A DNA stretch of 64,000 nt from Sunxiuqinia elliptica (lineage in GTDB: Bacteria > Bacteroidota > Bacteroidia > Bacteroidales > Prolixibacteraceae), in the NCBI RefSeq assembly GCF_900113005.1, contig NZ_FONW01000003.1, positions 62,001 through 126,000 on the forward strand, written 5' to 3'. The translations under genes and the position numbers were made by a program. Shown piece by piece: positions 9,421-41,958 of this stretch (its first letter is position 1; each line of letters starts with the position of its first letter). A model generated the notes under the pieces. That model was given only the letters and a program-made list of their open reading frames with translations, searched no databases and was not told where the DNA came from.

Positions 9421-9842
9421 CCGTCTTATTTTGAGCTTGAGTATTCCGATACTTATCAACTTTAAAGATAACCAAACCATTTTTTTGAATGTCGGTAGGC
9501 TTGTTAACGTTTGTTATGGCATGCAAAAGCTGATGCTCCTTTCATCTCGTTTAGCCTATGTTTACTGGCCCTGTTAAAGTTTTAGCCTCCCTGTTGGCTT
9601 TTTTCCTGTCCCTGTTACGATTTTGTTCGCCCAGTTATTAAATCTTAGCTTCCTGTAGGTGTTTTTATGATCTCTGTTATACAGGGGGTTAAAATTCTTT
9701 ATGTAGAGGGGCGTCTAACTGAAAGGACTATCGTTTGATTAACAGGATACTCAATAATACAGGCTATTTGAATGATTTTTTATTTTCGAGCCGGTAAAAT
9801 TCACGGGATATGGTTAAATTCGGAAGAATTTTGAATTGAGTT
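9421..9842. other. Intergenic region between divergent araC-like and mazG-like genes
   Basis: No gene is visible. Its main content is the phased heptamer array at 9569-9678. The presumed promoters of the two flanking genes must lie here, but I see no convincing -33/-7 pair. Confidence 0.5.
9569..9678. repeat. Phased heptamer array A (six copies, 20-21 bp period)
   Basis: Heptamers start at 9569 (CCCTGTT), 9589 (CCCTGTT), 9610 (CCCTGTT), 9630 (CCCAGTT), 9651 (TCCTGTA) and 9672 (CTCTGTT). Steps are 20, 21, 20, 21 and 21 bp. The 13-14-bp spacers differ from each other but are AT-rich with a central T run. The spacing equals two helical turns, so all copies face the same side of the DNA. The array lies between the AraC gene (minus) and the MazG-like gene (plus), more than 145 bp from either start. 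It is not CRISPR: the repeat is too short and so are the spacers. Confidence 0.75.
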
Positions 9843-39531: not shown

Positions 39532-40953
39532 ATGAAAAAGTATATTTTAATTGTTGTTCTAAGTATTTTAACCATTGCAGGGGCAATGGCTCAGGATATA
39601 AAAAAAGATGTAGAATATGGTCAGTATAATGGTCTGCCTCGTCAGGATCAAGCCATGCAAAAATGGCGTGAAAATCGTTTTGGACAGTTCATCCATTGGG
39701 GATTATATGCGATTCCCGGAGGAATATGGGAAGGAAAAACTTATCCGTATGCCTCAGAGTTCTTGAGAGGTTCAGCGAAAATAGCAACGTCAACATGGGA
39801 TTCTTTAATTTACCAGTTTGATATTCCTAAATACAATCCCAAAGAGTGGGCTGCAATAGCTAAGAATATGGGGGTAAAGTATGTAACCATTACTACTAAG
39901 CACCACGAGGGATTTTGTTTATGGCCCAGCGAGTATACTGATTTTGACATCGAGAATACGCCATATAAGAAGGATTTATTACGTGAGTTTGTTGATGCTT
40001 ATACCGCAGTTGGAATAGATGTAAATTTTTATTACTCGGTGTTAGACTGGCATCATCCGGATTGGCGTTACGATATTAAAAGTGATGAAGATAGAGCCGC
40101 ATTTGAACGGTTAAAACAGTTTACTAAAAACCAGTTAGTTGAACTCGTTACCCGCTATCCAGAAGTGAAAGGCTTGTGGTTCGATGGAACATGGGATAAT
40201 TCTTGGAAAAAGAGTGGGCAGTTTTCGTATGAGTTGGAAAAATTGTTGAAAAACAAACGTCCAGGTTTGATTGTAAACAGTCGAATGAGAGCTGATGAAC
40301 ACGGCAGTCGACATTTTGACAGTAATGGGATTTTAATGGGAGATTATGAATCTGGGTATGAACGTCGCTTGCCCAATCCGACAGACAAGGAAGTCTTAAC
40401 CCGTGACTGGGAGTGCTGCATGACCATTCCTGAAAACCAGTGGGGATATCATAAAGACTGGAGTATCAGTCATGTTAAGTCACCATTGGAATTGATCGAG
40501 ATGTTGGTGCAGTGTACCTCTCAAAACGGGAATTTTTTGCTCAACTTTGGACCTATGGGTAATGGTGATATTCGGCCAGAAGAACGTGAAGTTGCCAAAG
40601 AGATTGGAGAATGGATGAAGGTAAATAGCGAAGCTATATATGGTTGTGGCCCTGCTGACCTTGAAAAACAAGACTGGGGCTATTATACCTATAATGAAAA
40701 AAATGGAAAAGTTTACATGACAGTGTTTAATAACCCCGTATTAGGAAAATACAAAATAAGACTACCCAAAAGCCATACACTGAAGAAAGCTTCGTTAATT
40801 ACGAAGCAGGTAGAGTCACTTGAAATAAAGCAAATAAGCCCTACTGATTACTTTATTATTCCTGATAAGATAAATAACAAGAAGCCTTTTGTAATTATTC
40901 TGGAAATTGTGGACAGGGCATCAGGTAAGTTTCATCAGAAAGCACTAACTTAA
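39532..40953 (+). CDS. GH29 alpha-L-fucosidase (unit 1)
   Basis: A 473-residue exported exo-fucosidase with signal peptide MKKYILIVVLSILTIAGAMAQ. The catalytic barrel has NRFGQFIHWGLYAIPGG, KYVTITTKHHEGFCLWPS and the nucleophile Asp218 in GLWFDGTWDN. A short C-terminal beta domain follows (from about 390). It retains alpha-L-fucose by double displacement and shares most motifs with the second GH29 at 60902, so the two may be paralogues with different linkage preference. It lies 650 bp from SusD but in the same direction. Confidence 0.94.
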   Translation: MKKYILIVVLSILTIAGAMAQDIKKDVEYGQYNGLPRQDQAMQKWRENRFGQFIHWGLYAIPGGIWEGKTYPYASEFLRGSAKIATSTWDSLIYQFDIPKYNPKEWAAIAKNMGVKYVTITTKHHEGFCLWPSEYTDFDIENTPYKKDLLREFVDAYTAVGIDVNFYYSVLDWHHPDWRYDIKSDEDRAAFERLKQFTKNQLVELVTRYPEVKGLWFDGTWDNSWKKSGQFSYELEKLLKNKRPGLIVNSRMRADEHGSRHFDSNGILMGDYESGYERRLPNPTDKEVLTRDWECCMTIPENQWGYHKDWSISHVKSPLELIEMLVQCTSQNGNFLLNFGPMGNGDIRPEEREVAKEIGEWMKVNSEAIYGCGPADLEKQDWGYYTYNEKNGKVYMTVFNNPVLGKYKIRLPKSHTLKKASLITKQVESLEIKQISPTDYFIIPDKINNKKPFVIILEIVDRASGKFHQKALT

Positions 40954-40957
40954 TTCT

Positions 40958-40978
40958 GAGCTTTTTTATTAAAAGCTC
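40958..40978 (+). terminator. Terminator after the GH29 gene of unit 1
   Basis: GAGCTTTT and AAAAGCTC form an 8-bp perfect stem with a 5-nt loop. The phased heptamer array begins directly after it. Confidence 0.6.
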
Positions 40979-41177
40979 TCTTCCTAATCTTTTTCGCCTT
41001 CTTCCAGCTGTGTGAGGTGTTCTTCCAGGGGTGGGAGGGGGCTTTCCAAGACATTTTGTCAATTCTTCCAGCTAAAAAGCCAATCTTTCCAGCCAGGTGG
41101 GGTATCATTCCTGAAAAAAACGGAATCATTCCTCATCTTTTGACTGTTCGGATTGGCTTTTGTTGCTTTCTTCCAGT
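40978..41177. repeat. Phased heptamer array B (about ten 21-bp units)
   Basis: The core TTCC, usually within TTCTTCCAG, begins at 40981, 41002, 41023, 41044, 41066, 41087, 41108, 41129 and 41171. The step is 21 bp (once 22). The unit expected at 41150 is present but degenerate (TTCGGAT). Outside the heptamer the 14-bp spacers share no sequence. The array fills the space between the GH29 gene (plus) and a hypothetical gene (minus), which converge on it, so it is not an ordinary promoter. The period is exactly two helical turns, as in array A at 9569-9678, but the heptamer differs. Confidence 0.8.
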
Positions 41178-41214
41178 ATTTTAGACTATTTCAAAATAGA
41201 ATTGTAAACTAGTG

Positions 41215-41958
41215 TTATTCGCCTAGTGCCGGTTCTTCATCGGCTGTTGTTGAACGTCGGTTTTTTCGGTAATGGCTAATGTACCCTTTATAACGCTGGG
41301 GATTTCGCCAAAATAGATATTTCCCGGCATCACGGATTTCATCAACCAATTCTTTCAAATAAGTATAGGCTTTGTCTCGCAATAATTTCGATTGATTTTG
41401 ATCGGCTTTATCGCCGTTAGCCAAGCCCAATAGGTTCCCCATTTCGTCGGCTTTAGTTGCTGCAAGGTCTAATTTCGAGAGGTCGAAGCCAATTGCTTCC
41501 AGTGGAGTTTGGTTTTCACGGCCAAGCACAGCCAAGTCGTTTAAATCCTGGATCATATCAGCATGTCCATCACCTTCAGCAATAGCCGAAATACGCCCCA
41601 AAATTACCAGATCTTTACGATAAGCATAGCGGAAAGTATGGAGCAGTTCATTGCGAAGATCATAGGCTTGCGGAGAGAGTCGTGACCAATCACGTTGGGC
41701 TTCTTGTTGTGAATAACGGTCTTTAAACCAGATGGATTGAGTTTCTCGACAGGCACCTGTTCTGACCGGGAGATCCTCTATTTGCTCCGAAGTAATTCCG
41801 ATTGTTGCCAGTTGCTCCTGGTCGTCACGGCTCCAGTGGTAGAGGTTTTCGGCTTCCTGTAAGTAAACATCAACAGGAATTGTTGGGACTTGAGTTTCTT
41901 CATCTGGAATGGCCTGAATGGCTTCCAGTTTTTGGTTGTAATCATCAACATTTGCCAT
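41215..41958 (-). CDS. Hypothetical helical protein next to the phased array
   Basis: A 247-residue soluble protein without signal peptide or membrane segment. It looks largely alpha-helical and acidic in its first half. Visible stretches are LRNELLHTFRYAYRKDLVILGRISAIAEGDGHADMIQDLNDLAVLGREN, ATKADEMGNLLGLANGDK, and the basic C-terminus YLFWRNPQRYKGYISHYRKNRRS. I recognise no family. It is alone on the minus strand between two PUL units, and its 3' end lies 38 bp from the phased heptamer array, so its transcript probably carries the array as GGAAGAA repeats. The basic tail could bind nucleic acid (inference). Confidence 0.65.
   Translation of the reverse strand: MANVDDYNQKLEAIQAIPDEETQVPTIPVDVYLQEAENLYHWSRDDQEQLATIGITSEQIEDLPVRTGACRETQSIWFKDRYSQQEAQRDWSRLSPQAYDLRNELLHTFRYAYRKDLVILGRISAIAEGDGHADMIQDLNDLAVLGRENQTPLEAIGFDLSKLDLAATKADEMGNLLGLANGDKADQNQSKLLRDKAYTYLKELVDEIRDAGKYLFWRNPQRYKGYISHYRKNRRSTTADEEPALGE

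Follow-up and report, generated by a model that had tools for sequence, protein, structure and literature searches.

What is a row of ten short, evenly spaced motifs doing in a gap into which both flanking genes point? The window (i.e., the entire 64-kb stretch of DNA that was analyzed) contains such an array. A sequence-only reading had placed it outside any standard feature class, an assessment that the present analysis supports, and had offered three ideas about its nature (i.e., a DNA-bending or nucleoid protein track, a partition-like site, and a protein-binding RNA). The features at the locus are as follows.

40978 to 41177, minus strand: phased array of TTCC units with one degenerate unit (positions, period, unit consensus, and shuffle control).
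41074 to 41085, plus strand: left arm of a terminator-like outer stem, AAAAAGCCAATC (sequence and predicted fold; also in gene-less copies).
41150 to 41161, plus strand: right-hand partner arm of that stem, GGATTGGCTTTT; it overlaps the tenth, degenerate unit (sequence and predicted fold; also in gene-less copies).
39532 to 40953, plus strand: alpha-L-fucosidase gene, a converging neighbor given for context only (Pfam PF01120; E value, 3.5e-79).
41215 to 41958, minus strand: array-associated family gene encoding a 247-aa, all-helical protein with an acidic body (no Pfam family; predicted model).

We searched positions 40954 to 41214 and found TTCC only at 40981, 41002, 41023, 41044, 41066, 41087, 41108, 41129, and 41171, exactly the nine positions reported before. 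On the strand of the 247-aa gene the motif reads GGAA, and the consensus of seven chained units is CTGGAAgaA. The tenth unit, at 41150, is degenerate as described and lies within the right arm of an inverted repeat. The period had been called a strict 21 bp; the phasing itself holds (best-fit period, 21.15 bp; Rayleigh R for the nine TTCC cores, 0.997), but one step measures 22 bp and the tenth unit is degenerate, so that "strict" is too strong a word. The chain score of the interval (9.5) was reached in none of 2,000 dinucleotide-preserving shuffles (maximum, 7.0) and was the highest among 1,063 sliding 261-nt segments across the 64 kb. The proposal that phase is selected here, rather than left behind by a simple tandem duplication, thus gains support. 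A coding repeat was considered and rejected, since steps of 20, 21, and 22 nt are mixed. The fucosidase gene (plus strand) ends at 40953 and the 247-aa gene (minus strand) ends at 41215; a promoter role is therefore unlikely, as had been argued, because both neighbors converge on the array. At Rfam thresholds, the known RNAs in the window are the tmRNA and one tRNA, and nothing else. The AAAAAGCCAATC and GGATTGGCTTTT arms are paired in the predicted fold, and 115 nt of the array fold at -36.5 kcal/mol (both values of the fold being without a shuffle control).

The 247-aa protein matched no Pfam family and scored 21.2 bits against the NCBIfam PQLLE model (NF052641; cutoff, 80 bits). Its predicted model (pLDDT, 91.2; pTM, 0.71) consists of short helices and long helices of approximately 55 residues, in an order that occurs twice. 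Across 53 family members, the mean net charge is +6.0 in columns 211 to 238 and -14.9 in the body; the family proteins are acidic helical rods that end in a basic C-terminal helix. In the window protein this helix is the candidate for reading DNA.

41236 to 41274, minus strand: basic C-terminal helix, residues 229 to 241, proposed recognition helix (predicted model, tail/core comparison, and charge).

A sequence search of the PDB at an E value of 0.001 returned no match, and neither did Foldseek searches of PDB and viral structures with the family models (E values up to 0.001); these structure searches thus revealed no resemblance to a known DNA-binding fold. The best match of the PQLLE model, the RipA coiled coil (E value, 0.022), was taken as a generic long-helix resemblance.

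Is the array a property of this locus or of the gene? We collected relatives of the gene (56 loci from a scan of species genomes; six relatives in the host genome). The family loci are labeled Bacteroidota, candidate division KSB1, Aminicenantes, Neomarinimicrobiota, Gamma- and Deltaproteobacteria, and others; many come from metagenome bins, and single taxon labels may be wrong. With a fixed score, an array was detected within 600 nt downstream of the gene at 64 of 79 loci, while 21 of 3,000 random 600-nt stretches of the host genome scored as arrays, a background that includes some family arrays. An upstream array was found at 2 of 76 loci (L040 and L055, both without a downstream array). Thirteen of the 79 relatives had no above-threshold array on the tested downstream side and none upstream, and no array was found for two of the six host genome copies (L004 and L006). 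The suspected link to the minus-strand hypothetical gene is hence supported, gene and periodicity being retained together among relatives. Within 450 nt downstream at 58 loci, 5-mer self-matches peaked at lags 20 to 22, 41 to 43, and 61 to 64 (29-fold at lag 21 and 22-fold at lag 42); three other flank stretches reached at most 2.4-fold at lags 20 to 22.

The surroundings of the pair are not conserved. In flanks of up to 4 kb, many of them shorter, no gene cluster occurred in more than 5 of 60 contexts, and the neighbors showed no strand bias (30 minus and 25 plus, downstream and upstream alike). PADLOC gave no match for five family members, and no description of a gene-plus-array system of this kind was found in the part of the open-access literature that was covered. 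That a small helical-protein gene and an array are paired at many unrelated bacterial loci points to a system so far undescribed, one whose protein would cover a private DNA address of its own.

The rhythm is the constant element of the arrays (mean, 20.8 bp), and the core sequence varies by locus. Single steps (n = 373) averaged 20.82 bp, with run means of 20.25 to 21.5 bp. Neighboring steps compensate for each other: the lag-1 correlation in 31 arrays with diverged spacers was -0.352, against -0.145 expected (P = 0.0014), and it was -0.334 in the 22 most diverged arrays (P = 0.0062). Compensation around approximately 10.4 bp per turn is expected if cumulative phase on the helix matters; old two-unit duplications could be a partial source of it. 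Circular alignment of 62 unit profiles yielded the unit model ..caGGAagg...AAa...c, whose mean similarity was 1.77 compared with 0.87 (standard deviation, 0.04) in 40 column-shuffled controls. In this family-average unit, the GG core and an A-rich patch are separated by roughly one turn. In 20 of the 62 arrays, the unit has the reverse orientation with respect to the gene.

Ten CAGG-type loci (L002, L008 to L010, L013 to L015, L022, L045, and L051) have one two-armed layout, in which the first unit begins approximately 5 to 32 nt after the stop codon and four or five reversed units are followed by about seven or eight forward ones, not all of them exact matches. The arms meet at a CCTG-to-CAGG junction, 9 bp from center to center, in all 10 loci and also in L126. 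Core columns in nine of these loci are 73% alike, versus 49% for the spacers. Sites on a helix behave in this way. We dropped a claim that the two arms present the same DNA face across this dyad, since the choice of reference base sets the phase and a center-to-center distance of 9 bp says little about faces; the loss of this claim slightly lowers the standing of a DNA role.

Unit similarity tracks protein identity (Mantel r = 0.351; maximum of 2,000 permutations, 0.172). Among same-genome pairs, 1 of 19 exceeded a similarity of 0.6 (L085/L076). Close proteins may carry different cores: L066 and L008 have 81% identical proteins and a core similarity of 0.29, and L016 and L017, which share one genome, have 79% identical proteins and a core similarity of 0.28. 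When four TGGAA-type proteins were compared with eight chosen CAGG-type proteins, residue overlap was at most 0.13 at columns 231, 234 to 237, 241, and 246 (some with gaps), all of which belong to the C-terminal tail. In a 24-member group, 39 pairs had a body identity of at least 0.70; the mean tail score was 45.8 in the 20 same-core pairs and 8.9 in the 17 different-core pairs (Mann-Whitney P = 1.7e-7, with pairs that are not independent), at equal body identities (0.80 and 0.81, respectively). L012 and L067, for example, have 93% identical bodies and differ in both tail and core.

Several results count against this reading. When all 62 loci were taken together and body identity was corrected for, the effect of the tail stayed inside the range given by permutation (partial r = 0.126; maximum, 0.203), and a recognition tail across the whole family was dropped as not significant. 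Within the 24-member group, the tail value was reached in 16 of 1,000 permutations; after scanning of all segments along the protein, the best one was reached in 212 of 1,000, so that the tail is not significant by that measure. In remoter clades with CAGG-type arrays, the place of residue 231 is taken by W, Y, F, or N, and similar cores accompany different tails. Furthermore, the 3' end of the gene, which encodes the tail, adjoins the array, so that one recombination can swap both without any recognition.

The module appears to be mobile. The gene family occurs in 18 of 60 genomes of the host's own taxonomic family, its own included (up to six matches per genome, some of them fragments), and in 3 of 395 genomes of the phylum, again including its own, the other two matches being weak. 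A search of plasmids, phages, and viral contigs returned no match to the gene family. Over 909 nt that span the gene and the start of the array, L075 and L076, which come from two genera, share 91% identity; their remaining fetched flanks contained no match longer than 60 nt except short, weaker ones nearby (e.g., 151 nt at 73%). By these alignments, gene and array are common to different genera without their wider flanks.

Parts of the window array also recur without the gene, 74 to 95% identical, at four places in genome G048 and at one place in the host genome. Four of these five copies sit shortly after an apparent stop codon; the fifth (L200) lies between two genes, separated from the first by approximately 350 nt and from the second by 40 nt. 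Copies in both genomes carry the GCCAATC/GATTGGC terminator-like stem with a T run. By eye, genes near these copies bear sulfatase and glycosidase labels. In G048 itself, the copy of the 247-aa gene is broken, and the position after the syntenic fucosidase gene (L197) has no array by chain score (4.5), with TTCC-like units visible by eye. A chain-score scan of the window located another gene-less array.

9569 to 9765, no strand assigned: second, gene-less two-armed array of CCTGTT units followed by opposed CAGG units (chain-score scan of the window; sequence).

This array is of the same type as those of L002 and L009 to L015 and is flanked by an AraC-like gene on the minus strand and another gene on the plus strand; no family gene was present among the nearby ORFs or the genome matches. 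A further two-armed CAGG array without the gene is located at C15:710 kb. Array copies were few per genome in the material searched.

The family may belong to a wider class. The PQLLE model matched 40 of 53 members at E values up to 0.01, none of those shown exceeding the cutoff, and three other genes of the host genome do pass it. A comparison of the window family with the PQLLE profile (E value, 1.4e-6; 199 columns) indicates that PQLLE is a remote homologue, and its predicted model (pLDDT, 92.7; pTM, 0.80) has the same helix layout as the window protein; in both models, the repeated helix order is read as an internal duplication. A search with the PQLLE model brought up remoter, often multicopy relatives in other genomes of the Bacteroidota phylum. 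The remoter relatives (PQLLE and beyond) had an upstream array in 14 of 23 cases, several from one genome, and a downstream array in none of the 23. Some of these arrays are long, nearly identical tandem repeats (19 units at L119 and 12 at L116). Pfam DUF6261 gave seven matches, from which five genes were recovered, three of them with 21- or 42-bp arrays upstream (L174, L175, and L172). We tentatively consider, at a likelihood slightly short of even, that the window family, PQLLE, the remoter relatives with fibronectin-like C termini, and perhaps DUF6261 form a widespread and so far undescribed class of self-addressed nucleoprotein modules. These would be internally duplicated helical-rod proteins, present as several paralogues per genome, each with a private two-turn DNA code adjoining its gene, whose address could be switched by swapping the C-terminal helix together with the array.

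Several side observations were made at these and other scanned loci. Units at L174, upstream of the DUF6261 gene, are inverted pairs that form perfect or near-perfect palindromes. Five loci (L104, L105, L119, L122, and L123) seem by eye to have fibronectin-like C-terminal domains after the helical part; Pfam called no such domain in L119 and L122. TTCG-type units at 21-bp steps lie at L146:16808-17020, upstream of a 215-aa ORF without a known family, and eight TTTCAA units at exact 21-bp steps lie at L144:11397-11570, with no evident family gene nearby. L155:14664-14900 is a coding coiled coil with a 21-nt period, a false-positive type in the background scan, and an ACAGG pattern match in L124 is, judged by eye, apparently inside a coding gene.

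The interpretation that we favor, and regard as moderately probable, is that the array presents the adjoining helical protein with a row of sites on DNA, in phase with the helix, and that gene and array form a mobile module. A unit spans approximately 21 bp (i.e., two helix turns) and contains a core that is particular to the locus (CTGGAAGAA in this array); averaged over the family, it also has an A-rich patch approximately one turn past the core. With each unit occupied by a single protein or dimer, the proteins would be aligned along one face of the DNA, and the basic C-terminal helix would read the core, tail and core changing together. The gene and the array would make up a compact module of approximately 1 kb that moves between genomes, with arrays also spreading without the gene. 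From these patterns, we infer binding of the array by the protein, to DNA rather than to RNA and with one protein per unit, as a filament or by wrapping. Mixed unit orientation and a side of the gene that depends on the subfamily suit DNA better than a single sense RNA. Among the three ideas of the sequence-only reading, the track for a DNA-binding protein fits best. The cellular role can be guessed at as partition-like, silencing, or self-spreading; our own guess is a self-addressed nucleoprotein element, working in the manner of an iteron or partition array and maintained and disseminated in part through its own mobility.

The array could instead act as RNA, its units being transcribed in a 3' or 5' untranslated region and bound by the protein, while array and built-in hairpin end or protect transcripts. 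The gene-less copies speak for such a role: most sit just past a stop codon, and an RNA function would also explain the terminator-like hairpin that they carry. The strong (if unshuffled) fold of the window array points the same way. A short basic helix is suitable for an RNA-binding peptide, and the C-terminal helix of the family would fit that description as well. However, reversed units at 20 of 62 arrays, the differing side of the array between subfamilies, and step compensation around the helical turn, which RNA does not need, all count against it. Terminator-like hairpins between the stop codon and the first unit, at which transcription would end before the array, occur at 13 of 68 loci; with 6 of 68 in the control, this excess is too weak to serve as proof of a DNA role. 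On this evidence, we judge an RNA function unlikely. The narrower suggestion that the 3' tail of the gene acts as an RNA bound by protein suffers from the reversed units and from the upstream arrays of the remoter relatives, and retains the hairpin-ended copies past stop codons in its favor.

An even less probable account holds that the array is a REP-like dispersed repeat that works as a terminator and that the gene is no more than its mobilizer or a passenger; the periodicity would reflect repeat growth instead of protein binding. The gene-less copies in G048 and the host genome, and the sharing of gene and array between genera without wider flanks, are what it would lead one to expect. Yet spacers diverge while core and phase persist, the core is locus specific and tracks the protein, none of 53 proteins has the HUH motif, and neither flanking repeats nor target duplications could be established. 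That the variable spacers are guides, in the manner of TIGR-Tas or CRISPR, seems very improbable to us. Short repeats, spacers of similar size, one small adjoining gene, and a core that varies by locus do recall the TIGR arrays as described (PMC12045711); but in the arrays as printed each unit has a single core instead of a pair of alternating repeats, box C reaches a quarter of the units in 0 of 62 arrays, neither Pfam (no Nop family in the matches of 53 members) nor Foldseek (no match at E values up to 0.001) gives an indication, and the units are reversed relative to the gene in nearly a third of arrays. Chance or coding periodicity retains next to no credibility. Coding coiled coils do yield 21-nt periods, as the background hit at L155 illustrates; for the family as a whole, the shuffles, the contrast between 64 of 79 loci and 21 of 3,000 random stretches, and the mixed 20-, 21-, and 22-nt steps refute it.

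Four points of the analysis go beyond the earlier reading: the association holds across the family, the core is specific to each locus, the C-terminal tail differs along with the core, and copies exist that lack the gene. If the row of DNA sites is real, hundreds of hypothetical genes would gain a common biochemistry, the binding of an adjoining array, and chromosomes would harbor a new kind of phased array, with partition, silencing, and self-spread as candidate roles. A natural set of protein-DNA pairs would also become available, across which a short helix covaries with a short core; such a set would help in working out a recognition code. With several private addresses mixed in a single genome, one may also ask why crosstalk is avoided.

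Among known systems, TIGR-Tas is closest in look. As described, it has a small gene and an adjacent array of short, locus-specific repeats and spacers, upstream or downstream, the array being processed into 36-nt RNAs (PMC12045711). The family differs in that Nop is absent from the 19 Pfam families matched by 53 members (E values up to 0.1), that box C occurs in at least a quarter of units in none of 62 arrays and CTGA in at least half of them in 2, and that each unit has one repeat type, found in both orientations. CRISPR arrays have identical repeats of 25 to 36 nt, against a conserved core of approximately 7 to 9 nt here, and cas genes would be expected; the five members searched had no PADLOC match, and the contexts had no neighbor shared by more than 5 of 60. 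REPIN/RAYT systems pair a gene with repeats of its own type and have gene-less copies dispersed between genes (PMC3116915). Gene-less dispersed copies exist here too, in small numbers; the differences are the H-hydrophobic-H motif of the HUH (Y1) transposase, present in 0 of 53 members, the lack of any Pfam transposase match, and a many-unit phased array with few copies per genome in our search in place of REP doublets. NCBIfam PQLLE (NF052641) is a remote homologue with the same helix layout and arrays of its own; its arrays lie upstream, and the window protein attains 21.2 of the required 80 bits.

Plasmid iterons with Rep, parC with ParR, and tubC with TubR have direct repeats at intervals of roughly one or two turns of the helix; these repeats differ between coexisting replicons, and those of iteron systems are phased and bound by Rep. 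The likeness consists in a protein gene that adjoins helically spaced direct repeats. The window system differs from all three in being chromosomal, without a plasmid match, and in having no Rep, RHH, or HTH family in Pfam. ParR/parC and TubR/tubC have a partner NTPase gene; in the window family, no gene cluster occurred in more than 5 of 60 contexts (flanks of up to 4 kb, many shorter). A replicon with a Rep initiator finds no backing in the searches of plasmids, phages, and viral contigs (no match), in the chromosomal location of the contigs, or in Pfam (no Rep). Without claiming membership in either group, we regard the iteron and partition arrays as the best analogies for how a protein and the phased row of sites beside its gene might work together.
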